This document shows positions 4,182 through 20,200 of a stretch of DNA of 20,200 nucleotides, one piece after another. Position 1 is the first letter of the stretch, and the number at the start of each line of letters is the position of its first letter. The notes under the pieces are model-generated. The model was not told the origin of the DNA, made no database searches, and was given only the letters and a program-made list of their open reading frames with translations. This DNA comes from a virus, in IMG/VR virus record IMGVR_UViG_3300010158_000399, positions 1-20,200 of that record. The stretch is one strand, 5' to 3'. The position numbers and the translations under genes were made by a program.

Positions 4182-4209
4182 TCTGGGCATTGGTTGGCTC
4201 CGGCCCAGA
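4182..4209 (+). other. Hairpin upstream of the terminator
   Basis: TCTGGGC (4182-4188) can pair with GCCCAGA (4203-4209), a perfect 7-bp stem with a 14-base loop starting right after the upstream stop codon. It may protect the mRNA 3' end or assist termination. Confidence 0.5.
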
Positions 4210-4215
4210 CTTTGA

Positions 4216-4240
4216 CAGGGACTTTGGTCCCTGTTTTTTT
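4216..4240 (+). terminator. Rho-independent terminator of the early operon
   Basis: CAGGGAC (4216-4222) pairs perfectly with GTCCCTG (4227-4233) around the loop TTTG and is followed by seven T residues (4234-4240). The last two T residues are also the start of the -35 box of the next promoter. Confidence 0.93.
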
Positions 4241-4267
4241 GACTTTTACTTGCTAATACTATATACT
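4239..4267 (+). promoter_or_regulatory. Promoter of the first radical SAM gene (leaderless)
   Basis: TTGACT (4239-4244), 17-bp spacer, TATACT (4262-4267), then six bases and the ATG at 4274. Transcription would be expected to start at or next to the A of the ATG. The -35 overlaps the terminator T-tract. An imperfect operator-like repeat, ATACTA at 4256-4261 and TAGTAT at 4267-4272, spans the -10. Confidence 0.8.
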
Positions 4268-4273
4268 AGTATC

Positions 4274-5404
4274 ATGCCCTTTTGTTATTCACCATGGACC
4301 AATGTCGATATTGACCCTGTCGGGGCTATAACACCTTGTTGCAAATTTGACACCAAACATTATTCTGAACAGTTTAACATACAAACACATACTATCAAAC
4401 AATACGCTCAAAGTCAATTGGTTCAAGAAATTAAAAAAGACTTTGTAAATGGCACCTGGCCCAAGGGATGCGAGAGGTGCCGGATTGAAGAAAACAACTC
4501 AATTGAAAGCAAACGCATCTTAGACTACGCACGGTGGGAAGAGCATTACAAAGAATATGATCTTGAACATGATCAATTTATTACTGCAAGTGTAGCATTT
4601 GGTAATACTTGCAATTTGAAATGTATTACATGCAATCCAATTGCATCAAGTATGTGGCAGCAAGAACATAAGAAAATTTTTAATGTTGAAGTACCACACT
4701 TTAAATTTTACAAACAAAACTTTGTGAATGATTTCACTGGTAGTGTTCCTGATATTGTGCATTTAGACGTACCTGGTGGAGAACCGTTTTTAAGCGGAGT
4801 GCCTGAACAAAAATTATTGCTACAACATTACATTGATAGTGGTCGGGCCGACAAGATTACACTGCACTACACTACCAACGTCACTGTATTTCCATCACAA
4901 GATTGGTGGGATCTTTGGAAACATTTTAAAGAAATTGATATACAATTAAGCATAGACGGAATACACGCACGATACGAATACATACGTTTTCCTGCCAAAT
5001 GGAAAGATACCGTGGTCAATGTCAAACAATATTTGCAAAAAGAAAAAGATATAAGTAACATAAGACTCAGTGTTAGCCATACAGTTAGTGCATACAATAT
5101 ATTGTATCTTGATGAGTTTTGTACATGGGCTAGTCAAATTGGATTACCGAAACCCTGGTTAGGGCGTGTACATTATCCGCATTACATGCGCCCCGGCGTA
5201 TGGCCCAATGATGCTAAAAATTTTATAAAAGATAAAATATTACAATCCGCAATAACCGAAATACATCTGTGGGCGCATTTAATGGCCAATCACGATGATA
5301 GTGAGAATTTTGATTTGTTCTGTCAGAGACTAAAACAACACGATGATTACAGGGGAGTTAACTTTGCAACAGTATTTTCCGAATTAAAAAATTACATCAA
5401 ATGA
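4274..5404 (+). CDS. Radical SAM protein with N-terminal cysteine pairs (radical SAM 1)
   Basis: A 376-residue enzyme. C113, C117 and C120 form CxxxCxxC (context FGNTCNLKCITCNP), which holds the 4Fe-4S cluster that cleaves S-adenosylmethionine, and VPGGEPFLSG near 167-176 is the GGEP SAM-binding motif. Before the core are a Cys-Cys pair (C22-C23) and CERC (C66, C69), which may bind an auxiliary cluster as in twitch/SPASM-type proteins. The substrate is unknown. I chose the ATG at 4274 because the open frame upstream runs through the terminator and promoter; this start lies six bases after the -10, so the mRNA is probably leaderless. The protein is similar to the gene at 18130: both have a C-C pair, C-x-x-C, CxxxCxxC, GGEP and a later R-F-P-A-K-W segment. 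It overlaps the next gene by ATGA. Confidence 0.9.
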   Translation: MPFCYSPWTNVDIDPVGAITPCCKFDTKHYSEQFNIQTHTIKQYAQSQLVQEIKKDFVNGTWPKGCERCRIEENNSIESKRILDYARWEEHYKEYDLEHDQFITASVAFGNTCNLKCITCNPIASSMWQQEHKKIFNVEVPHFKFYKQNFVNDFTGSVPDIVHLDVPGGEPFLSGVPEQKLLLQHYIDSGRADKITLHYTTNVTVFPSQDWWDLWKHFKEIDIQLSIDGIHARYEYIRFPAKWKDTVVNVKQYLQKEKDISNIRLSVSHTVSAYNILYLDEFCTWASQIGLPKPWLGRVHYPHYMRPGVWPNDAKNFIKDKILQSAITEIHLWAHLMANHDDSENFDLFCQRLKQHDDYRGVNFATVFSELKNYIK

Positions 5405-6723
5405 ACAAACAATATGCTGTTATACCTTTGTTAGAAAAAAAGAGTAAGTTTTTTTGTCCAGCCAAATGGACTGAACTGTTTTTGTATTTGAATCACGGAA
5501 CAAGCAACAGTTGCCACCACCCGTTGCCACACGAGATTCCCAAAGAATTATTATCCAACCCAGCAGTACTACACAACACTCCTCACAAGTTGGAACAACA
5601 ACGTTTAATGATGAATGGAATACGACCCGAAGAGTGCCACATGTGCTGGCACATTGAAGATTCAAATCCCGATGCAGTAAGTGATCGCATAGTAAAAAGC
5701 CAACACTGGCAAGACAAAATAGCAGATCTTGTGGTCGATCCCAGCTATGTGCCACCTTTTATTGAGGTGATATTTGACAACTATTGTAATTTGTCTTGTA
5801 GTTATTGTGACTCTGGGCAGAGCTCTTCTTGGGCAGCCAAAATACACACTCAACCATTACACCTAGAGTCCGACCATCGACACTTGTACTCAAAAATACA
5901 CATTGCACCGGGTACCACTAAAAAAGAATATCTTGATGCATGGTTAAAGTGGTGGCCGCAGATTCGAAATCAGGTCCAGATACTTAAAATTAGTGGTGGC
6001 GAGCCATTGATGAGCAAAAACTTTTGGCAGTTTGTTGAGTCTCTAGGCTCTGCACCAAACTTAACAATTGCCATCAACAGTAATTGTTCTGTAGATATCA
6101 AATACCTCAAACGGTTTGCTGAGTACGCACCAAATTTTCTTAAAGTTATAATTTCTGCCAGTATTGATGCCACAGGAGATATTGCCGAATACGCAAGACA
6201 AGGATTAGACTACACGCAATTCTTAACCAACATAGAATACTGGTGTTCCGAAACTTCAGATAATTGTTTTCTTAAACTGCAAAGCACAGTCAGCATACTA
6301 AATGTATGGGGGCTAACAGACAAGTTTGATTTAAATATACAATTGAGAAAAAAATATCCCGCTCGCATCTTAGATTTTTACAGCACTGTAGTTCGCGCAC
6401 CAGAATTCCAGTCTGTGTCTTTATTACCAGAAACAATAAAACAACAGATTGGGCAACGGATGCAAATTTGGTTTAAAAATAATAAACAATCATTAACTGA
6501 AACTGAACAAATCTTTGTAAACAAAACTATTGGATATCTATTAGATAACCCTATTCCGCAACATACGTTTGATAGCAGAGTTTTAGAGATTGACTTTGTG
6601 AAGTTTTTGCAGTATTATAACAACTCTAGCAAATTAAAATATCAACATATATATCCAAAGGAATTTTTAAATTGGATACAATCAATAAGCAATTATGAAA
6701 CGATGCACAATACAAATACGTGA
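5401..6723 (+). CDS. Radical SAM protein, divergent (radical SAM 2)
   Basis: A 440-residue protein coupled by ATGA to radical SAM 1. The CxxxCxxC motif is at C129, C133 and C136 (context DNYCNLSCSYCDSG) and ISGGEPLMSK at 197-206 gives the GGEP motif. The N-terminal part has scattered cysteines (C19, C38) and E-C-H-M-C-W with C79 and C82, comparable in position to the CxxC of its neighbour but without the Cys-Cys pair. It is longer and clearly more distant from the other two radical SAM proteins. The tandem arrangement suggests the two act on the same substrate or in successive steps, which is inference. The 3' end overlaps the UvsW start by 29 bp, consistent with later insertion of the radical SAM pair in front of a core gene. 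Base composition is AT-rich compared with UvsW. Confidence 0.9.
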   Translation: MNKQYAVIPLLEKKSKFFCPAKWTELFLYLNHGTSNSCHHPLPHEIPKELLSNPAVLHNTPHKLEQQRLMMNGIRPEECHMCWHIEDSNPDAVSDRIVKSQHWQDKIADLVVDPSYVPPFIEVIFDNYCNLSCSYCDSGQSSSWAAKIHTQPLHLESDHRHLYSKIHIAPGTTKKEYLDAWLKWWPQIRNQVQILKISGGEPLMSKNFWQFVESLGSAPNLTIAINSNCSVDIKYLKRFAEYAPNFLKVIISASIDATGDIAEYARQGLDYTQFLTNIEYWCSETSDNCFLKLQSTVSILNVWGLTDKFDLNIQLRKKYPARILDFYSTVVRAPEFQSVSLLPETIKQQIGQRMQIWFKNNKQSLTETEQIFVNKTIGYLLDNPIPQHTFDSRVLEIDFVKFLQYYNNSSKLKYQHIYPKEFLNWIQSISNYETMHNTNT

Positions 6724-8164
6724 TGAAGTAAACATCCGACTAGAAGGCCTGGACTTGGATGTACGCAAAGCCCTGACCAATGCGTTCAAATATGATGTTC
6801 CCTATGCACGTTACTTGCCTGCGGTCAGATTGGGACGTTGGGACGGCAAGGTCAGTTACTTCCAAATGGGAGGTAGCACATACACCAACCTGTTGCCCGA
6901 GATCATTCCAATATTGGAAAAGTTTGATTACGACATTGAACTAGATGACCAACGAGAATACTCAAACACATTTCAGTTTGAGCAAGTGCGCGAGGATTCG
7001 TTTGCACACATCATGTGGCCTAAAGGACATCCACAAGAAGGCACGCCTATTGTGATGCGTGACTACCAGGTGGAGATTGTGAACAGTTTCCTGGCCAACC
7101 CGCAGTGCCTGCAAGAGGTGGCCACAGGTGCAGGTAAGACTATCATGACAGCGGCATTATCAAATGCTGTGACACCATATGGACGATCAATCGTTATTGT
7201 GCCCAACAAGAGTCTAGTCACACAAACAGAAAAAGACTACGTCAACATGCAACAGGATGTGGGCGTGTACTTTGGTGACAGGAAAGAATATGGACGCCAG
7301 CATACCATATGCACTTGGCAAAGTCTCAACATCTTGTTGAAGAATACCAAAGCAGGCGTAGGTGACTGTACCATTGGCGAGTTCCTGGAAGGTGTGGTAT
7401 GTGTTATTGTGGACGAAGTACACATGGCCAAAGCAGATGCACTCAAAACATTGTTAACTGGTGTGATGGCTACAGTGCCAATTAGGTGGGGATTGACTGG
7501 AACCATACCCAAAGAAAAGTTTGAAAGCCAAGCATTGCTGGTCAGTCTTGGACCTGTTATCGGACGCCTCAGTGCCAACGAACTGCAACAACAAGGTGTG
7601 CTGGCCAATTGCCATGTGAACATTGTGCAGTTGGTAGATCATGTGGAGTTTAAAGAATACCAAAGCGAGCTTAAATACTTGCTTGAGGAATCAGGTAGAC
7701 TGGACACCATAGCAGAACTCATACGTAAAGTAAACGAAACAGGCAACACACTGGTGCTTGTGGACAGGGTAGCCGCGGGCAATGCCCTGGTAGAACGACT
7801 GGGTGAGCGAGCTGTGTTTGTGTCTGGTGCCACCAAAGCAAAAGATAGACAAGACGAATATGATGAAATTGCCGACAGCACTGATAAGATTATTGTGGCT
7901 ACCTATGGTGTTGCCTCTGTGGGTATTAATATCCCTAGGATTTTTAATTTGGTTCTTATTGAACCCGGGAAAAGTTTTGTCCGCGTTATTCAAAGTATTG
8001 GACGGGGCATAAGAAAAGCTGAAGACAAAGACCATGTGCAGATCTGGGACATAACTTCAACCTGCAAGTTTGCCAAACGTCACTTGACCAAACGCAAACA
8101 ATTTTATCGAGAGGCCAATTACCCTTTCTCGGCAGAAAAACTAGAATGGATGAAAATAGCATAA
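6695..8164 (+). CDS. uvsW: UvsW-type superfamily 2 DNA helicase
   Basis: A 489-residue superfamily 2 helicase. Walker A is ATGAGKT at 143-149, the DExH box is DEVH at 240-243, motif III is LTGT at 267-270, and motif VI is QSIGRGIRKA at 433-442. The N-terminal 100 residues include an L-G-R-W-D-G-K stretch near 46-52, which matches the position and style of the small N-terminal domain of T4 UvsW (N-W-D-G-R). UvsW unwinds R-loops and branched DNA, and in T4 helps switch from origin-dependent to recombination-dependent replication. The start overlaps the preceding radical SAM gene by 29 bp and has no obvious ribosome site, so it may rely on coupling. The stop shares a base with the next ATG (TAATG). 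Length is close to that of T4 UvsW. Confidence 0.9.
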   Translation: MKRCTIQIRDEVNIRLEGLDLDVRKALTNAFKYDVPYARYLPAVRLGRWDGKVSYFQMGGSTYTNLLPEIIPILEKFDYDIELDDQREYSNTFQFEQVREDSFAHIMWPKGHPQEGTPIVMRDYQVEIVNSFLANPQCLQEVATGAGKTIMTAALSNAVTPYGRSIVIVPNKSLVTQTEKDYVNMQQDVGVYFGDRKEYGRQHTICTWQSLNILLKNTKAGVGDCTIGEFLEGVVCVIVDEVHMAKADALKTLLTGVMATVPIRWGLTGTIPKEKFESQALLVSLGPVIGRLSANELQQQGVLANCHVNIVQLVDHVEFKEYQSELKYLLEESGRLDTIAELIRKVNETGNTLVLVDRVAAGNALVERLGERAVFVSGATKAKDRQDEYDEIADSTDKIIVATYGVASVGINIPRIFNLVLIEPGKSFVRVIQSIGRGIRKAEDKDHVQIWDITSTCKFAKRHLTKRKQFYREANYPFSAEKLEWMKIA

Positions 8165-10807: not shown

Positions 10808-11155
10808 ATGATCAAAAACATTTGGCACAATGGACCTGGTATTCATGTAGAAATAAATGCTTCTGGACCTTCTTTTCCTATGACCACGTCTGACTCTGGA
10901 CGGGTTCGTTATAATGGCAGTCTTAAAGCAATGGAAACATATGACGGCTATGCCTGGGTCCCAGTGGGTACCAACGCCATGGTTGGATTAACTGCTGACT
11001 ATATTGGTGCAATTGAGTGGGCAAAAGCAAAACGTGAACAAGAACAAAAAATTACACGTCGTGCCGAACTGGACCCGGTTGTGCGTGATGCACTAGACGC
11101 AGTAGAAAAAGCACAGGAACAATTACAAATGGTCATGGAGTTGACTGAAAAATGA
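10808..11155 (+). CDS. Phage protein 'A': beta N-terminus, coiled-coil C-terminus
   Basis: A 115-residue protein. Residues about 30-57 (GRVRYNGSLKAMETYDGYAW then VPVG) match a short motif common in phage structural proteins (R-Y-N-G/T ... YDG-x-W), while residues about 70-115 are charged, heptad-like and probably a coiled coil (AKAKREQEQKI, then AVEKAQEQLQMVM). Function is unknown. The last 138 bases of this gene (11018-11155) are present again in diverged form at 11807-11944, joined to the beginning of gene B. It is coupled to the SGNH-like gene by ATGA. Confidence 0.8.
   Translation: MIKNIWHNGPGIHVEINASGPSFPMTTSDSGRVRYNGSLKAMETYDGYAWVPVGTNAMVGLTADYIGAIEWAKAKREQEQKITRRAELDPVVRDALDAVEKAQEQLQMVMELTEK
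11018..11155 (+). repeat. 3' end of gene A, duplicated downstream
   Basis: These 138 bases align without gaps to 11807-11944. By hand count about 16 positions differ, mostly third-codon positions plus the last few codons. The copy here is the intact one. Confidence 0.9.
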
Positions 11156-11727
11156 AATTATTATTATGTGGTGATAGTTTTAGTTACGATCATAAACTTG
11201 AGCATAGCTGGCCAACTAGATTATCTCAAGTGCACCAAGTTGATAATCTAAGTCAATGTGGGTGTGGTGAATACAAAATAAGATTACAAATTGCATCACG
11301 CAATCTTGACAATTACGATGCTGTAATGATTTTTCATACTAGCCCAAATCGAATTTATTATAATCAGTTAAACAATATGTATGTTGACAATTATCATGGC
11401 CAAGCTGATTTTTTGTTTACTGATGTAGAACATCATCGACACTCAAATAAACTGGCACAAACAGCCTATGATTATTTTGTAAACATATTCGATGCTACAT
11501 ATCATTCATATGTTCATAATTTAATTTGTGCCGAGATTGATCAAATAACCAAACCATACTGTATATATCATTTCACAGCATTTGATTACTCAACATTATA
11601 TCAATTTGACAATAATCTAATAGATTTGTATAATATATGGCAGGCCAATCGCGGGAACATAAACCATTTGAATCCAGCGGGCCATCAAGAGTTTTTTAAA
11701 AAGATAACAGATACAATAACAATATGA
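11152..11727 (+). CDS. SGNH/GDSL hydrolase-like protein (inserted cargo gene)
   Basis: A 191-residue protein. LLLCGDSFSY at 3-12 gives the block I G-D-S with S9 as nucleophile, QCGCGEYKI at 35-43 lies where block II glycine is expected, and INHLNPAGHQEFF at 170-182 matches the C-terminal H-P-N-x-x-G-H-type block V with H172 as the likely catalytic histidine. The aspartate usually three residues earlier is an asparagine here (N169), so activity is uncertain. Such enzymes remove acetyl or acyl groups from sugars and lipids. It is strongly AT-rich compared with genes A and B. It lies directly between gene A and a broken copy of the start of gene B, so it is interpreted as cargo inserted between A and B. 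Confidence 0.7.
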   Translation: MKLLLCGDSFSYDHKLEHSWPTRLSQVHQVDNLSQCGCGEYKIRLQIASRNLDNYDAVMIFHTSPNRIYYNQLNNMYVDNYHGQADFLFTDVEHHRHSNKLAQTAYDYFVNIFDATYHSYVHNLICAEIDQITKPYCIYHFTAFDYSTLYQFDNNLIDLYNIWQANRGNINHLNPAGHQEFFKKITDTITI

Positions 11728-11944
11728 GCGCAGATATTGACATTGACTTTGCCAACAGAGAAGATATACTGAAACTGATTCGGCATACTCCAGCACGACA
11801 AAGTAATGGGCAAAAGCAAAACGTGAACAAGAACAAAAAATTGCACGTCGTGCCGAACTGGATCCTGTTGTGCGTGACGCATTAGAGTCAGTAGAAAAAG
11901 CACAGGAACAATTACAAATGGTCATGACATTAACAGATGTATAA
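11724..11944 (+). pseudogene. Chimeric relic: start of gene B fused to end of gene A
   Basis: Bases 11724 to about 11810 are a diverged copy of the first 87 bases of gene B (MSADIDIDFANREDILKLIR compared with MSADIDLDFANREDILKLIQ; about 14 mismatches). From 11807 the sequence continues as a diverged copy of the last 138 bases of gene A, but out of frame with the B part. Reading from the ATG therefore gives 53 residues and stops at 11885, while the A-type frame runs on to a TAA at 11942-11944. At the joint the two parents share TGGGC-x-AAAGCA-x-AAC. The piece can make neither protein. The B part still shows purifying-type differences, so both parents were functional before the fusion. Confidence 0.9.
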
Positions 11945-12035: not shown

Positions 12036-12995
12036 ATGAAAATAGCTATTGATTATCAAGGTAGAACATACGGAAGATTTTTAGAATTTGTGTGCAACAC
12101 ATTACTAGGAATAACTACCGGAACCCCGTTTTATCGTGGGTGGGTTGGATATGTCGATATCAACGGAAAAAATTATGCAGGAGATAAAGTATTTGAAGCA
12201 AATCAACATTTCTTCCTTCCAAAAGACATTGAAGCCGAAAAAGTAATAAGCATACAGTTTGATATTAACGATTTATTACCAGTTCAACAAACAAATTTGT
12301 TAGTGGAAATTCCTTACGGATATGACATGATACCAATAGAAATTAATACTTACAATAGATTCAATGAAATAAAAGGGTATCGAGACATATTGCAAAATTT
12401 GTCAGACAATTTTTTTAAAAATCAAATTAAAGAAAGTTATAATGCAGTTAGAGATCCGTCTTGGCCCGATGTAACCACTATTGCAGAATTTGAAAAATTG
12501 CCTGATATAATTAAACAAGAATGCATCGAACAACATAAATTAGAGTTGTTAGAGTTTTCGGCAGATTATCCTGATTGTCCGAGACAAATACTGCGAGAGT
12601 TTTTCCAAATTGGATTTTCTAAACCTGAACAGCATGGATTAATTCTTAGTCAAAAGAAAATGCAATACCAGGAAGACAAGCAAGTATACATATTTCCATT
12701 TAGATGTTTTTATAACAAACATGATTTTTTAGAACAAATAGAAAAGATTACAGAATGGGCAGGAATACCTCACAACTATCAACAAAAGATTGAACTATTG
12801 CATGATGAATTTTTACAAAAAGAACCTTATAGAAATTCAAAAGCCAAATGTGACATGATTATCAACATAATACAAACCGGAATAAGAGAGTCTTGGCCCA
12901 AGTACGAAATAACCGAATCATCTGCAGTATCAGAATTAGATGTGGTAGAAGAAGCCTATATAAACGCCGCACTTGGTCAAGATTGGTTTCAATGA
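12036..12995 (+). CDS. AT-rich cargo protein with GRFLEF motif, unknown function
   Basis: A 319-residue protein that starts at the ATG behind AAGGAA (12025-12030). The start, MKIAIDYQGRTYGRFLEFVC, has a conserved-looking G-R-F-L-E-F loop after the first strand, and a later YIFPFRCFYNKHDFLEQIEK segment (from about residue 226) ends a strand and begins a helix. This order, an early Y-G-R-F loop and a late strand-helix with a charged residue, is reminiscent of sulfotransferase-like phage proteins, but without a clear PAPS site I do not assign that function. The gene is very AT-rich, overlaps gene B by ATGA, and is preceded by a 91-bp spacer after the A'-type relic. It is therefore the second cargo gene placed between A and B. 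Confidence 0.75.
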   Translation: MKIAIDYQGRTYGRFLEFVCNTLLGITTGTPFYRGWVGYVDINGKNYAGDKVFEANQHFFLPKDIEAEKVISIQFDINDLLPVQQTNLLVEIPYGYDMIPIEINTYNRFNEIKGYRDILQNLSDNFFKNQIKESYNAVRDPSWPDVTTIAEFEKLPDIIKQECIEQHKLELLEFSADYPDCPRQILREFFQIGFSKPEQHGLILSQKKMQYQEDKQVYIFPFRCFYNKHDFLEQIEKITEWAGIPHNYQQKIELLHDEFLQKEPYRNSKAKCDMIINIIQTGIRESWPKYEITESSAVSELDVVEEAYINAALGQDWFQ

Positions 12996-13561
12996 GCGCA
13001 GATATTGATTTAGACTTTGCAAATCGTGAAGATATATTGAAACTTATTCAACATGTTCCTGCACGACAAAGTAATGGGCGAAAGCACAACTCGGGAATAT
13101 ATGTTACCAACATACCACGTGATCCATTCAATGGTTGTGCGGCATTAGATTACGAAACAGCAGAACAACGTGGATACTTTAAACTAGACTTCTTGAACAT
13201 GAGTGTGTATCAGTTGATACAGAATCCGGCACACTATCAACAAATGCTAGATCAAACACCACCTTGGTCACAACTTTGGGCGGACCGTGAGTGGGCCAGT
13301 AAACTAGTACATATAGGCAATTACACAGATTTACTAAAGGTAATGCGGCCAGATAGTATACCCAGGATGGCAGCCTTTATATCTATCATACGTCCGGGCA
13401 AGGCACATTTACAAACACGCCCGTGGGACGAAGTATTTTCTAGTGTGTGGGACGGAGATGAATCACAAGGATTTGTGTTCAAACACAGTCATGCAATTTC
13501 TTATGCAGCCTTGGTTGCGTTACATATGAATTTAATCAGTCAAGACGTCGCACAAGTGTAA
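12992..13561 (+). CDS. Miniature DNA polymerase III alpha (C-family)-like protein, gene 'B'
   Basis: A 189-residue protein that carries, in order, short versions of the landmark motifs of the bacterial replicative polymerase core. ADIDLDF at 3-9 corresponds to PDFDVDF of E. coli DnaE (catalytic D401 and D403 to D4 and D6). GRKHNSGIYV at 29-38 corresponds to GKHAGGVV. GYFKLDFLNM at 61-70 corresponds to GLVKFDFLGL (third catalytic Asp D555 to D66). RPDSIPRMAAF with IIRPGK at 119-137 corresponds to QPDCFEDMIAL with LFRPGP. FKHSHAISYA at 163-172 corresponds to NKSHSAAYAL. DnaE is about 1,160 residues, so PHP, most of the fingers, the clamp-binding and the OB parts are absent. All three catalytic aspartates are kept. 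Activity and role are unknown. I chose the ATG at 12992 (ATGA with the upstream stop); its counterpart is conserved in the relic at 11724. Confidence 0.72.
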   Translation: MSADIDLDFANREDILKLIQHVPARQSNGRKHNSGIYVTNIPRDPFNGCAALDYETAEQRGYFKLDFLNMSVYQLIQNPAHYQQMLDQTPPWSQLWADREWASKLVHIGNYTDLLKVMRPDSIPRMAAFISIIRPGKAHLQTRPWDEVFSSVWDGDESQGFVFKHSHAISYAALVALHMNLISQDVAQV

Positions 13562-13913
13562 TTGATTTTCTCTTGCCTTTTTTACGGGCAATGTCCAACA
13601 AACTACAAGCCGGACCGTGTAAGATTTCTAAATCTTTGTTGACAAAAGTACGTAGGGTGGGACGGAACTTTTCCCAGTCTCGCCGCAGGAATATGTTGAT
13701 GGGAATTGAACGATTACTCTCCCACCACCAGGTTGACGCTAGTTCTAAAAACTCCATCTTGAGCTCTTGTGTTTGAACAACGCCAAAGTCATAGATGGTG
13801 GTCACAATATCATCCCTGTTTTGTACAACACCTACATATTCTGCATTGGCGTACATGCACAGCGTTATAAACGGATATTTTTCAGTTAATTTTTCAAAGA
13901 TATTGTTTCCCAT
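13536..13913 (-). CDS. Conserved T4-like phage protein, 125 residues, unknown function
   Basis: Minus-strand gene, the first of two in this orientation. The product is compact and basic at its end: MGNNIFEKLTEKYPFITLCM, then AEYVGVVQNRDDIVTTIYDF, a WWWESNR segment near residues 62-68 with IPINIFL after it, and a C-terminal CSLLDIARKKGKRKSITLVR. I recall closely similar proteins from marine T4-like phages (YVGIIQNQDD, TWWWESNR, IPIN), always of unknown function. The start is supported by a late-type promoter element six bases upstream of the ATG. Its 3' end overlaps the end of gene B by 26 bp on the opposite strand. Plus-strand frames in the same region lack ribosome sites and are judged spurious. 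Confidence 0.82.
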   Translation of the reverse strand: MGNNIFEKLTEKYPFITLCMYANAEYVGVVQNRDDIVTTIYDFGVVQTQELKMEFLELASTWWWESNRSIPINIFLRRDWEKFRPTLRTFVNKDLEILHGPACSLLDIARKKGKRKSITLVRRLD

Positions 13914-15057: not shown

Positions 15058-16050
15058 ATGCTTGACATCCTAACATATCTACCTGCAAAAAGAAAAGCCA
15101 CACCGGGCGGTTGGTTGAGCTTCAATGCAGTATGTTGCACTCACAATGGCAACACACAGGACCGTCGTCAACGTGGCGGGATCAAACAAACTGAACAGGG
15201 ATGGAGTTATCATTGTTTCAATTGCGCATACACAGCCAGTTTTATCCTTGGCCGGAATCTTTCCTTTAAGGCCCGCAGGCTCTTGACTTGGCTGGGTGTG
15301 CCCGAAGCAGAAATAGAACGTGTAAATTTGGAGAGTATGCGACATCGCAGTATCAATGGCATACTACAAGAACGCCGACAAACATTTGATGCACTTGCTG
15401 GCATCTCTTTTCCAGAATTTGAACTGCCTGCATTTTCAGTAGTGTGTACACCCAAACATACAGAAGCATGGCAATATCTTAGAAATAGATCAGCACCTGT
15501 AGATTATCCTTTCATGGTTACCGATCCTGATAACGGATCTATTGGTGTAGGAGCATCTTTAAGATCATATGTGATTGTTCCATTCACTTACGATAATTCT
15601 GTAGTGGGATTTACGCAACGATTTTTAGATGACCGTACTCCCAGATACATTAATCAAACACCGCCGGGTTATGTATTTGGCACAGATCTACAACATGACA
15701 CCTGGACTCATGTGTTAGTAACAGAAGGCATATTTGATGCATTGACTATTGGTGGTTTAGCAGTAATGCATAATACCATAAGCGATACTCAAGCAAGACT
15801 CATACGCAGTCTGGGCAAAGAGGTAACTGTTGTGCCGGACCAAGATGTTGCAGGCATGGAATTGGTAGACCGTGCTGTGGAATTGAACTGGGCAGTGAGC
15901 ATGCCCGAGTGGCCAGAAGGTTGTAAAGATGTAAATGATGCAGTGATAAAATTAGGAAAATTAGGCACATTGCTAACTATAATGCAATCAAGAGAAACCA
16001 GTAAGATAAAAATTGAGATGAGAAAAAAATGGCTATTAAAAAAATTCTAA
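15058..16050 (+). CDS. DNA primase, gp61/TOPRIM type
   Basis: A 330-residue primase like T4 gp61 (T4 protein 342 residues). A zinc-binding region near the N-terminus has C26, C27 and H29, then C53 and C56 (WSYHCFNCAY). The TOPRIM core shows LVTEGIFDAL at 220-229 with catalytic E223, and VVPDQDVAGM at 258-267 with the metal-binding D261 and D263. Primases of this group make the short RNA primers for lagging-strand synthesis and work with the DnaB-type helicase, encoded two genes downstream. The start is the ATG just behind the leaderless promoter. The last 20 residues are lysine-rich and overlap the sulfotransferase start by 22 bp, so the C-terminus may have been altered by that insertion. Confidence 0.88.
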   Translation: MLDILTYLPAKRKATPGGWLSFNAVCCTHNGNTQDRRQRGGIKQTEQGWSYHCFNCAYTASFILGRNLSFKARRLLTWLGVPEAEIERVNLESMRHRSINGILQERRQTFDALAGISFPEFELPAFSVVCTPKHTEAWQYLRNRSAPVDYPFMVTDPDNGSIGVGASLRSYVIVPFTYDNSVVGFTQRFLDDRTPRYINQTPPGYVFGTDLQHDTWTHVLVTEGIFDALTIGGLAVMHNTISDTQARLIRSLGKEVTVVPDQDVAGMELVDRAVELNWAVSMPEWPEGCKDVNDAVIKLGKLGTLLTIMQSRETSKIKIEMRKKWLLKKF

Positions 16051-16682
16051 TCCTTGCTATGCCACGAACTGGAACAACAATCATACAAGAAATTCTGTCA
16101 CGAGAATTTAGAATTGCAAATTTGTCTGAACCTTTTGCTAGATATATTAGAAAAACAGATCCTAGAAAAGATTATCCCCCAGATAACGACCCTTATCAAT
16201 GGGTGGCCAAAGAAACTTCTGGTATTTTTAAATTGTTGTCCACAACGCTAGATCACTTTGATTTTGAAAAAATAATTTCAATTGCTAAATTTGATCACGT
16301 GATCATGATCGAACGTAAAAATCTAGTGGATGGATTATTGAGTTTAAAATATGCAGAACTAACTGATAAGTATCATTGTTTCCGGGGAGAAACTATTATC
16401 CCGCAACAGTTTGGCGTAGACCAGTTTGATTTTGGACTATGGGATAGATCTTATCGGCTATACAATGAATCTAAAAATCTCATAATCAATTCAAATATTT
16501 CCTATGATTTAATAAGCTATGATGATTTTGTAGCAGATATACCACAGTACGTTGCAGGACATTTATTGCAACAATCTAAAGCGTCGGGAAATTACAATAT
16601 TATACCAAATGATTTATGTTATAAAGATTTATGCATAAATTATCAGGAAGTTGAAACACACATAAGGAATACAACTTGTTAA
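16029..16682 (+). CDS. Sulfotransferase-like protein inserted between primase and helicase
   Basis: A 217-residue protein. ILAMPRTGTT at 8-17 is the 5'-phosphosulfate loop that binds PAPS, and VIMIERKNLVDGLLSLKYAE at 91-110 corresponds to the 3'-phosphate-binding strand-helix (R-x-x-x-x-x-x-x-S-L) of sulfotransferases. The acceptor is unknown; phage examples are thought to modify glycans or small molecules. The gene is distinctly AT-rich relative to the flanking replication genes and overlaps both: 22 bp with the primase and a few bases with the helicase. T4-like phages usually keep primase and helicase as a functional pair, so this gene is interpreted as inserted cargo. The ribosome site of the helicase (AAGGA at 16664-16668) lies within its last codons. 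Confidence 0.8.
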   Translation: MAIKKILILAMPRTGTTIIQEILSREFRIANLSEPFARYIRKTDPRKDYPPDNDPYQWVAKETSGIFKLLSTTLDHFDFEKIISIAKFDHVIMIERKNLVDGLLSLKYAELTDKYHCFRGETIIPQQFGVDQFDFGLWDRSYRLYNESKNLIINSNISYDLISYDDFVADIPQYVAGHLLQQSKASGNYNIIPNDLCYKDLCINYQEVETHIRNTTC

Positions 16683-18133
16683 AAGATTACGGACTTGAGG
16701 TCCAACGATTATTCCTAGAGATGATGTTGGAGGATGCGGCCAGTTACGTGCGTGTTCAAAACATCTATAACCCTGCAAACTTTGACCGCAGTCTTAGACC
16801 TGCGGCTGAGTTTATCAAGGAACACAGTGACAAGCACAAGACCATGCCTGACAGGACACAGATTTTGGCCACAACTGGGATCAAACTTGCCCCGGTACCA
16901 GAACTAAACGAAGGGCACTATGACTGGTTCATGCAGGAGTTTGAATCATTTACCAAGCGTCAAGAACTTGAACGTGCAATCTTAAAGTCCGCAGACTTGT
17001 TGGAAAAAGGTGAGTTTGAACCGGTAGAGAAACTGATCAAGGATGCTGTACAAATAAGTTTAACCAAGGACATGGGCACAGACTATTTTGCTGATCCAGC
17101 AGGTCGTATCAACAAGTATTTTAATTCAGGTGGACAAGTATCAACAGGTTGGCCACAACTGGATAGATTGTTGTATGGTGGATTTAGTCGCGGTGAACTA
17201 AACATCTTTGCCGGCGGATCCGGATCAGGCAAGAGTCTTGTGATGATGAACATTGCACTCAACTGGTTGCAACAAGGGCTAAGTGGAGTTTATGTCACAC
17301 TAGAATTAAGTGAAGAACTTACTAGTTTAAGAACAGATGCTATGTTAACAAACATGAGCACTAAAGAGATACGCAAAGACATTGGCACAACAGAACTCAA
17401 AGTCAAACTTGTGGCCAAAAAGTCTGGACAGTATCGAGTTAAAGGATTACCGGCACAAAGCAACATCAACGACATTCGCAGTTATATCAAAGAAGTACAG
17501 ATACAAACCAATATAAAGGTTGACTTTATCATGGTAGACTATTTGGACTTGTTGATGCCGGTGAGTGCTAAAGTTTCGCCCAATGACTTGTTTGTTAAAG
17601 ACAAGTATGTTTCAGAAGAACTGCGTAACTTGGCCAAGGAATTGGGTGTGCTAATGGTCACAGCAAGTCAATTGAATCGTAGTGCTGTGGAAGAGATTGA
17701 GTTCGATCACTCGCATATTTCGGGTGGCATATCCAAGATCAATACTGCTGACAACGTGTTTGGTATTTTTACAAGCAGACACATGAAAGAAAAGGGCAAG
17801 TATCAAATTCAATGTATGAAGAGTCGTAGTTCAACAGGAGTTGGCCAAAAGATTGATTTAGAATACAATATTGAAACCATGCGTATTACAGATGCAGGTG
17901 GAGAAGAAAACGGTTACAACAAGCCCACAACAAACATCATGGATTCGATCAAGGCACGCAGTCAAGTCCGTGCCGACGAGGATGGTGTTGTAGATGAGAA
18001 CGCACCTGTAAAGTGGAACCGTCCCGAAGGTATCAGTGCTTGGGAAAAACCTCCACAAGAAACCAGCAAGGTATCAGCAGATGTTCAGAGTGCAAAACTA
18101 AAACAGTTATTAGGACAAATTAAATCTCAATGA
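16676..18133 (+). CDS. Replicative DNA helicase, DnaB/gp41 type
   Basis: A 485-residue helicase of the DnaB family (T4 gp41 is 475). The N-terminal 130 residues form the helical primase-interacting part. The RecA-like core has Walker A GGSGSGKS at about 180-187 (context NIFAGGSGSGKSLVM), Walker B FIMVDYLDLL with D288, and a later S-Q-L-N-R sensor-like segment (VTASQLNRSAVEE). The enzyme unwinds DNA at the fork and stimulates the primase. The start is a TTG, supported by AAGGA seven bases upstream and overlap with the preceding stop; no ATG is suitably placed. The last 60 bases (18074-18133) are repeated in recoded form at 19098-19157, after radical SAM 3. The radical SAM start overlaps the stop by four bases (ATGA). 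Confidence 0.92.
   Translation: MLKDYGLEVQRLFLEMMLEDAASYVRVQNIYNPANFDRSLRPAAEFIKEHSDKHKTMPDRTQILATTGIKLAPVPELNEGHYDWFMQEFESFTKRQELERAILKSADLLEKGEFEPVEKLIKDAVQISLTKDMGTDYFADPAGRINKYFNSGGQVSTGWPQLDRLLYGGFSRGELNIFAGGSGSGKSLVMMNIALNWLQQGLSGVYVTLELSEELTSLRTDAMLTNMSTKEIRKDIGTTELKVKLVAKKSGQYRVKGLPAQSNINDIRSYIKEVQIQTNIKVDFIMVDYLDLLMPVSAKVSPNDLFVKDKYVSEELRNLAKELGVLMVTASQLNRSAVEEIEFDHSHISGGISKINTADNVFGIFTSRHMKEKGKYQIQCMKSRSSTGVGQKIDLEYNIETMRITDAGGEENGYNKPTTNIMDSIKARSQVRADEDGVVDENAPVKWNRPEGISAWEKPPQETSKVSADVQSAKLKQLLGQIKSQ
18074..18133 (+). repeat. Helicase 3' end, duplicated after radical SAM 3
   Basis: These 60 bases align without gaps to 19098-19157. The first 32 bases are identical; of the last 28, about 11 differ, nearly all at synonymous positions. 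Both copies encode SADVQSAKLKQLLGQIKS followed by Q here and N in the copy. Confidence 0.93.
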
Positions 18134-19125
18134 CATGCATTGACATTTATAAAAATATAAACATTGTTGCTCGGCAAAATGCACTAGCAATTTCGCCTTG
18201 TTGTATATCGCCTATACGCCCATTTGAAGTAGTTGATTTTTTGAAAAACGAATACCTTGTTAGTCTTCGCAATGAGATATCTACTGGGAAGTTACCGACA
18301 GCATGTGGTATTTGTAAAAATGCCGAATCTGCTGGACTAACAAGCCGACGGCAAGGTAGCAACTCTTGGTACAAAGACCACAACCTTAACAACAACAAGG
18401 TTGAGTTAATTCGCATGGATTACTGGACTGGTGATACATGTAATTTGGCCTGTGTAATATGCGGACCGCATAATAGTAGTGTATGGAAGCAAGAACTTGG
18501 GCTACCCAAGGAATTACAAAAATCAACGGCCAATCAGTTTTGGAAAACCGTCGACTTGAGTAATATACAATTTATACATTTCAATGGCGGCGAACCGTTG
18601 TTGAGTAAAGAGCATGTAAAATTGTTACATGCTGTTGAGCATAAAAATCAAGTACACTTAAATTACAACACTAATGGAACTATATTACCAAATGAAGAGT
18701 TGTTGAATTTGTGGGAGCAATTTAAGTTAGTGCAACTTGATTTCAGTATCGATGACGTCGGTGAAAGATTTGAATACCAACGGTTCCCTGCAAAGTGGGC
18801 TCAGGTAACAGATAATTTGCAATGGTATATTGATAATGCGCCGCATAATTGTATGTTTGCAATCAATACATCGGTTGGTATTTTAAATCATGCTAACCTG
18901 GACAAATTGCTAACATGGCTGCAACATAATTTCCATACCACAAGATTTACAGACCCAATAGAGTATAGACAACAACTAACCCAGGGCGTGTTTGCATTAA
19001 AAGATGCAGACAAAAGAAAATCCAAAATAATTGCTACCCTAGATTCTATTGATCAACGCCGTGGAACAAATTATCGCGCCATATTTCCGGAATTGTTTCA
19101 GCAGATGTTCAGAGTGCAAAACTAA
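18130..19125 (+). CDS. Radical SAM protein, paralogue of radical SAM 1 (radical SAM 3)
   Basis: A 331-residue radical SAM enzyme. CxxxCxxC is C104, C108 and C111 (context DTCNLACVICGP), and GGEP lies at 153-156 (HFNGGEPLLSKE). A Cys-Cys pair is at C24-C25 and CGIC is at C59/C62, in the same order as in radical SAM 1. Both proteins also share an R-F-P-A-K-W segment and an F-x-x-x-x-x-E-L end (YRAIFPEL here, FATVFSEL there), so they are paralogues. The substrate is unknown. The last eight residues (QQMFRVQN) are encoded by a copied piece of the helicase gene read in another frame. The natural C-terminus therefore seems to have been replaced just after the conserved P-E-L position. The product is otherwise full length. 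It overlaps the helicase stop by ATGA. Confidence 0.9.
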   Translation: MTCIDIYKNINIVARQNALAISPCCISPIRPFEVVDFLKNEYLVSLRNEISTGKLPTACGICKNAESAGLTSRRQGSNSWYKDHNLNNNKVELIRMDYWTGDTCNLACVICGPHNSSVWKQELGLPKELQKSTANQFWKTVDLSNIQFIHFNGGEPLLSKEHVKLLHAVEHKNQVHLNYNTNGTILPNEELLNLWEQFKLVQLDFSIDDVGERFEYQRFPAKWAQVTDNLQWYIDNAPHNCMFAINTSVGILNHANLDKLLTWLQHNFHTTRFTDPIEYRQQLTQGVFALKDADKRKSKIIATLDSIDQRRGTNYRAIFPELFQQMFRVQN

Positions 19126-19157
19126 AACAACTGCTGGGACAAATCAAATCAAATTAG
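19098..19157 (+). pseudogene. Recoded relic of the helicase 3' end
   Basis: A diverged copy of 18074-18133, encoding SADVQSAKLKQLLGQIKSN and a TAG stop in the helicase frame but with no start or upstream helicase sequence. It supplies the last codons and stop of radical SAM 3 in a different frame. Its final bases also overlap the end of the minus-strand fibre gene. Confidence 0.92.
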
Positions 19158-20200
19158 GCCGCAACGCCTTTGATCACAGCAAAGTTGATAATAGGTGCTT
19201 CACTAGTGACACCACCAGTGGTCCATACAGTTATGTTAGCACTGCCACCTGTTGCACCTATTTGTGACACAAGTAAATTATACAAGTTGGTACCAGATCT
19301 TTGATTCAGGATCACGACATCAGTGTTTGCTATTGCACTGTTGGTGAGTGTGAATGTGGTAGGAGTAGTATTTCCTGCAACCGTGAACAATACAATATTG
19401 CCAGTGACTGTGTTTAATGTAACTCCTGTTGCACGACTTGTGCCCTGAGTAACTGTTCCGCCAGCACCGGTTGCATATCCTATACCTGCAGTTGGATAGT
19501 TTGATTTAATAGAAAATGCTGACGTGATACTTGAAGTGGCTGATATTGTTCCAGTGGTCAATGCATAACCAATGGAGACATTACCACCAGTGATATTGCC
19601 ACTAGAGGTAGTAATATTACCTGTTGCTGAAATCAATCCACCAGTCAAGATGTTTCCAGCAAATGTTCCCATACCTGCAGAGAAATTATTAATACTATAC
19701 ATCGAAACTGTGGCGCCGCCATAATTTGCCACATACACAAATCTACCAGTTGGGTCAACAGTTACGCCGTATGGAGTAGTTCCTGTGGCAACAGCAGTGG
19801 TTATGCTGGTCAATGCACCGGTTGACTGATCGATGCTGTACATTGAAACTGTGCCGGCGGTACTATTTGCCACATACACAAATCTACCAGTTGGGTCAAC
19901 AGCCACGGCGTATGGACCAGTTCCCGCGGCAACAGCAGTGGTTATGCTGGTCAATGCACCGGTTGACTGATTGATGCTGTACATTGAAACTGTTGCACCG
20001 CCATAATTTGCCACATACACAAATCTACCAGTTGGGTCAACAGCTACGCTGAGTGGACCAGATCCTGTGGCAACAGCGGTGGTTATGCTGGTCAATGCAC
20101 CAGTTGACTGATTGATGCTGTACATCGAAACTGTGTTGCCGCTACTATTTGCCACATACACAAATCTACCAGTTGGGTCAACAGCTACGTCGTATGGTCC
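19154..20200 (-). CDS. Tail-fibre-like protein: beta-propeller repeats plus C-terminal fibre domain (5' part outside window)
   Basis: Minus-strand gene, open to the right edge, so the N-terminus is missing; 348 residues are visible. The visible N-terminal half has repeats of 47 residues (V-D-P-T-G-R-F-V-Y-V-A-N, then V-S-M-Y-S-I, then S-T-G-A-L-T-S-I-T-T-A-V) of the lactonase/YVTN beta-propeller type. The last repeat is cut short after MYSIN and followed by a glycine/threonine/serine-rich part (GNILTGGLISATGNITTSSG and on) typical of trimeric phage fibres. The C-terminal 100 residues form a beta-rich domain (TLNTVTGNIVLFTVAGNTTP; VVILNQRSGTNLYNLLVSQI) resembling other phage fibre tips. Such proteins usually bind the host surface. 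It converges tail-to-tail with radical SAM 3 and overlaps the helicase relic by four bases. Confidence 0.82.
   Translation of the reverse strand, partial: GPYDVAVDPTGRFVYVANSSGNTVSMYSINQSTGALTSITTAVATGSGPLSVAVDPTGRFVYVANYGGATVSMYSINQSTGALTSITTAVAAGTGPYAVAVDPTGRFVYVANSTAGTVSMYSIDQSTGALTSITTAVATGTTPYGVTVDPTGRFVYVANYGGATVSMYSINNFSAGMGTFAGNILTGGLISATGNITTSSGNITGGNVSIGYALTTGTISATSSITSAFSIKSNYPTAGIGYATGAGGTVTQGTSRATGVTLNTVTGNIVLFTVAGNTTPTTFTLTNSAIANTDVVILNQRSGTNLYNLLVSQIGATGGSANITVWTTGGVTSEAPIINFAVIKGVAA
19695..20200 (-). repeat. 141-bp tandem repeats encoding beta-propeller blades
   Basis: The sequence AAATCTACCAGTTGGGTCAA recurs at 19739, 19880, 20021 and 20162 (plus strand), exactly 141 bases apart. 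About 3.6 copies are visible and continue past the window edge. Differences are clustered at two places per unit: the residues after V-A-N (SSGN, YGGA, STAG, YGGA from N to C) and those before the next V-D-P-T-G. Confidence 0.95.

Follow-up and report, generated by a model that had tools for sequence, protein, structure and literature searches.

A 189-residue viral protein as the C-terminal half of a split minimal DnaE-type polymerase

A DnaE relative in a T4-like replication neighbourhood

What might a protein of 189 residues that resembles the core of a bacterial replicase be doing among the replication genes of a phage? The question is raised by a 20.2-kb viral contig with a T4-like replication neighbourhood (the window, that is, the whole stretch of DNA analysed here), in which an open reading frame at 12992-13561 (+) encodes a product starting MSADIDLDF. 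An earlier note on this DNA had placed the gene correctly and had recognized in its product five landmark segments of DnaE, the DNA polymerase III alpha subunit, in collinear order. Single-sequence searches with the protein, against Pfam and with phmmer against the PDB, returned no match, so that a profile was needed. The protein is a member of the family phrog_11778, annotated as 'DNA polymerase' (E 7e-50), and corresponds to the C-terminal half (C half) of a split minimal DnaE-type polymerase, as the profiles and the AlphaFold model indicate. The C half is found in 63 of 50,697 phage records, and those listed are nearly all jumbo phages, the remainder being shorter, apparently partial records. 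More than 500 IMG/VR stretches carry homologues, and the cultured representatives shown share 33-39% identity with the 189-residue protein.

The relationship with DnaE is supported at the level of both profile and fold. When all PDB chains were compared with a profile of 107 non-redundant homologues (184-216 aa, identity down to 33%), nine matches were obtained at E<=10, each of them a DNA polymerase III alpha (best E 0.007), including the collinear segments MPDIDIDF and FNKSHA. In a profile-profile comparison with hhalign against an alignment of 13 diverse DnaE sequences, built from plasmid and phage records, the C half reached an E of 5.1e-9, better than all of its controls (reversal and 20 column shuffles of the C half, E 0.007-0.9). 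The AlphaFold model of the protein (pLDDT 92.4) retrieves DnaE chains first in Foldseek. With VIA-align, C-family polymerases take the first 11 places (Z 6.0-9.6, with 177-188 of the 189 residues aligned, and 184-188 in the alignments to DnaE), while the best unrelated fold reaches a Z of 3.5. The model spans residues 399-781 of E. coli DnaE and 418-808 of Mtb DnaE1 end to end, with the order kept. The 189-residue protein is thus a genuine C-family relative and not a chance resemblance, and the five-segment homology claimed in the earlier note is borne out by sequence profiles and by structure prediction alike. The catalytic aspartates and the fold are also common to PolC, and two PDB entries whose numbering fits PolC (9qpc and 9qrl) align to the model as well. 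It has been established that the position of E. coli D405 is occupied by Asp in DnaE and by Asn in PolC (PMC3919608); since Asp is found there in 107 of 107 phage sequences, the phage protein is of the DnaE type.

The surroundings of the gene are those of Cronobacter phage GAP32, in which a C-half homologue lies in the same gene order as in the window. By comparison with GAP32, the conserved neighbourhood begins upstream with a UvsW-like DNA helicase (6695-8164, +) and includes a DNA primase (15058-16050, +) and a DnaB/gp41-like replicative helicase (16676-18133, +). A convergent gene of phrog_11637 (13536-13913, -) overlaps the 3' end of the C half and occupies the same place in GAP32; upstream, the small families phrog_11279, phrog_11758 and phrog_11058, of unknown function, are common to both. 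The window also contains genes of other kinds. Three radical SAM or SPASM-type genes (4190-5404, 5401-6723 and 18130-19125) lie in the replication region and are possibly peptide- or sugar-modifying cargo. The gene between primase and replicative helicase (16029-16682) gives a weak sulfotransferase-like match below the cut-off (Pfam E 2e-4). A Methyltransf_24 methyltransferase-domain gene (831-1490) is followed by one without a Pfam match that appears glycosyltransferase-like by eye (1490-2215), and a gene on the opposite strand (19154-20161, -) encodes the lactonase-like repeats of a seven-bladed beta-propeller and a tail that resembles a virion protein.

Active-site residues and the separately encoded partner

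Ten residues that are invariant in the 107 C halves (D4, D6, D8, H32, K64, D66, L68, R134, F163 and H167) have as counterparts in DnaE, in the same order, D401, D403, D405, H511, K553, D555, L557, R639, F756 and H760, all of which are invariant in the 13-sequence DnaE set. Overall, 10 of the 13 mapped DnaE-invariant positions coincide with the 19 invariant positions of the C half (hypergeometric p ~2e-9). The codons of D4, D6 and D8 lie in the DIDLD segment at 13001-13015 (+), followed by those of H32 in the KHAGGVVI segment (13085-13087, +), of K64 and D66 in FKLDFL (13181-13189, +), and of R134-P135-G136-K137 (13391-13402, +), the counterpart of the RPGP segment of DnaE, in which R134, P135 and K137 are invariant. 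The last of these segments, F163 to H167 (FKHSH; 13478-13492, +), was matched to F756 to H760 through the profile and the DnaE alignment. In DnaE, the catalytic magnesium ions are coordinated by D401, D403 and D555 (PMC3919608), and H760 is the proposed ribonucleotide steric gate (PMC8485763). The three catalytic aspartates named in the earlier note (D4, D6 and D66) therefore lie where it had put them; they align with the metal-binding residues in the model and are invariant throughout the family.

Compared with bacterial DnaE1 (E. coli PolIII alpha, PDB 2HNH and 5FKV; Mtb, 5LEW), the C half is one sixth as large and comprises the C-terminal palm and the base of the fingers, with equivalents of D401, D403, D405, D555, K553, H511, R639, F756 and H760. 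The whole 189 residues map to DnaE 399-781 only, and the PHP, beta-clamp-binding, OB and C-terminal domains (CTD) of full-length DnaE are absent. Neither the thumb nor the full fingers are matched: the thumb is shrunk to ~20 residues, the distal fingers are absent, and in the structure and hhalign alignments no C-half residues fall in the columns of Q687, E688 and R709. These three, together with G423, are DnaE-invariant residues without a counterpart in the split phage polymerase, in which, in addition, the R390 position is Glu and the Q610 position is mostly His. The part of the palm that bears the GS motif is not in the 189-residue protein either; a GRGSS motif is found in a partner protein, so that the Pol-beta-like palm with its GS motif is present only in trans.

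This partner, the N half (PF07733/phrog_11127), is encoded in relatives by a separate gene of ~170 aa, detected by PF07733 in PA5oct, GAP32, Atu_ph07 and G001, the last of which carries a C half 78% identical to the 189-residue protein. Its profile matches DnaE with an E of 7.7e-10, and residues 73-172 of its model (pLDDT 87.3) align to E. coli 277-393 and Mtb 306-413, with Z up to 12.1. The equivalents of R362, G363 and S364 are invariant in 63 N halves. The two halves are complementary: the N half ends at DnaE residue 393 and the C half begins at 399, which places the break just before the catalytic motif. The earlier description of the 189-residue protein as a miniature DnaE core is thus accurate as to homology and motifs and fails as to self-sufficiency, as the GS-motif part of the palm is the product of a second gene in relatives.

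The two halves also occur together. The N half is found in 62 of the 50,697 phage records, and 59 of 60 listed C-half phage records also hold it (lists compared by eye), the sole exception among the 60 being PP728206.1, a 109-kb record. The host tallies of the two sets are almost identical, and both halves are present in 14 of 14 searched records that measure at least 286 kb; the contigs that carry one half only are 107-280 kb long and are probably fragments. Among 177 C-half and 92 N-half loci there is neither a fusion nor an adjacency of the two genes, the nearest measured spacing being 34 kb, in CBB. In the relatives with a C half 70-78% identical to that of the window (G001, G014, G015, G017 and G018), the N half lies ~95 kb or more away; the window lacks an N half, being at 20 kb too short to reach one at such a distance. 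A B-family polymerase (PF00136) is encoded in 11 of 15 relatives' records, though not in the window itself, so the expectation that the C-family relative coexists with a B-family enzyme holds for the relatives. In L089, L090 and L093, the N-half gene is followed by a small conserved gene and, after it, by one that looks GroES-like by eye, an order shared by phages as distant as PA5oct, Atu_ph07 and the freshwater G001.

The earlier note had known of no described protein of this size with this set of motifs; the family is, however, already described. Iyer et al. reported in 2021 (PMC7824862) that jumbo phages of group 2.2 have a split minimal Pol III alpha, a recognition that was computational, from sequence, and the 189-residue protein is the C-terminal unit of that system. 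Size, motifs, profile family and kind of phage all agree. Here too, a standalone protein has only the Mg-binding aspartates and the template-binding part of PolIII alpha, and relatives encode the N-terminal NTP-binding unit in a distant, separate gene. A B-family polymerase (in relatives) and the T4-like genes for UvsW, primase and DnaB helicase (in the window) accompany it, as in the system of 2021. The window differs in being a contig of an uncultivated virus and in having two gene insertions before the usual upstream neighbour of the C half. The papers on CBB and Atu_ph07 had already remarked on a small Pol III alpha; the gene named in the CBB paper (CBB_328, 172 aa) is the N half, and the one in the Atu_ph07 paper appears to be the N half too. 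In Atu_ph07, the annotated start of the C half FDI40_gp074 (L086:18305-18865; NC_042013.1 58304-58864) has been placed past the DIDIDF motif, so that two of the catalytic aspartates are missing from the deposited protein, although they are encoded in the DNA. To the 2021 proposal, the present analysis adds the precise break point, the near-obligate co-occurrence, the steric gate, the DnaE-type D405 and the list of missing DnaE-invariant residues.

The partial second copy upstream of the gene

A second, partial copy of the C-half gene lies upstream of the intact one. The stretch at 11724-11822 (+) represents the C-half gene of a relative, of which it contains the opening 33 codons (84% nucleotide identity to the intact copy, 89% to L078). 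That at 11823-11944 (+) represents the gene at 10808-11155 in a relative's version, of which it contains the 3' end (93% to the window's own copy, 94% to L004). The 99 bp of C-half sequence and the 122 bp of upstream-gene end are joined at the short homology TGGGCRAAAGCAMAAC. The gene at 10808-11155 (+) is the one normally found directly upstream of the C half (L004, L013-L015, L024, L032 and L043), and in the window two genes (11152-11727 and 12036-12995) sit between them. In L028 and L062, too, the 319-aa insert gene immediately precedes the C half. Since the copy at 11724 comprises 33 codons, is nearer to the alleles of other phages and runs on into a remnant of the upstream gene, it is read as a recombination scar, most likely left when the two inserted genes arrived by recombination. 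The proposal of duplicated alleles that both keep D4 and D6 under selection is consequently rejected: one 'allele' amounts to 33 codons from a relative, continued by the end of a neighbouring gene, and its D4 and D6 are no evidence of selection. Such evidence comes instead from the conservation read in the alignment of 107 sequences.

Possible activity of the split polymerase

The reading that we consider probable is that the two halves rebuild a single palm active site and that the result is an active, low-processivity, dNTP-transferring enzyme. The C half would bring the catalytic aspartates and the base of the fingers, and the N half, encoded far off in the same genome, the GS-motif part of the palm; by binding each other, they would form one palm active site of ~360 residues. 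The triphosphate would be held by the GS motif and the K553 equivalent and the metals by the three aspartates, and ribonucleotides would be excluded by the H760 equivalent. Such an enzyme could carry out low-processivity DNA synthesis beside the B-family replicase, e.g., in gap filling, repair or the synthesis of one strand, possibly helped by the DnaQ-like exonuclease for which GAP32 and CBB have a gene close by. Because the thumb and the distal fingers, with Q687, E688 and R709, are missing, the activity is something that we infer, as are the physical assembly and the role of the split polymerase. More tentatively, the ~190- and ~170-residue proteins may together make up a C-family DNA polymerase that is active without a thumb and smaller than any other of its family, working beside the B-family replicase. 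No functional tests of the split mini-polymerase were found in the literature searched.

The same absences lend weight to the main rival reading, a non-polymerising or altered transferase in which the old active site is reused: a nucleotide-binding factor (DNA-binding, clamp-loader or accessory to the B-family polymerase) or another nucleotidyltransferase, e.g., a terminal or oligonucleotide transferase. In its favour are the loss of the thumb, of R390 and of Q687, E688 and R709, which are invariant in the fingers of DnaE, and the B-family replicase that is already there. Against it, neither the steric gate H760 nor any of the metal and GS-motif residues varies, which suggests that dNTP transfer is retained, and we regard this rival as rather unlikely.

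It is far less probable that the protein, by mimicking part of the core of host Pol III alpha, acts on that enzyme as a decoy or inhibitor, a function that the earlier note had entertained. Modulators of host enzymes are often encoded by phages, and the C half is homologous to host DnaE. However, a decoy acting through its surface would have no use for the buried catalytic residues, and yet these do not vary among phages that infect many different hosts; it is the surface-exposed parts of DnaE (PHP, thumb, beta- and tau-binding) that are missing, and pairing with the N half is near-obligate. Nor is a decoy easily reconciled with an active site so strictly conserved in the two halves. That the gene is a decaying, functionless fragment of a former full-length DnaE, to which its small size and the adjoining truncated 33-codon copy might point, is refuted by the conservation of the family, with 107 non-redundant homologues of 184-216 aa at identities down to 33% and 19 invariant columns, 10 of them shared with DnaE.

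Whether the two halves assembled into one palm have polymerase activity is a question directly testable with two small proteins. If they do, the thumb-less split polymerase would be either primitive or the outcome of a drastic reduction of the core of the bacterial replicase. A minimal C-family site made of two proteins would reveal what that core needs for chemistry, and would show why jumbo phages keep both B-family and C-family enzymes.
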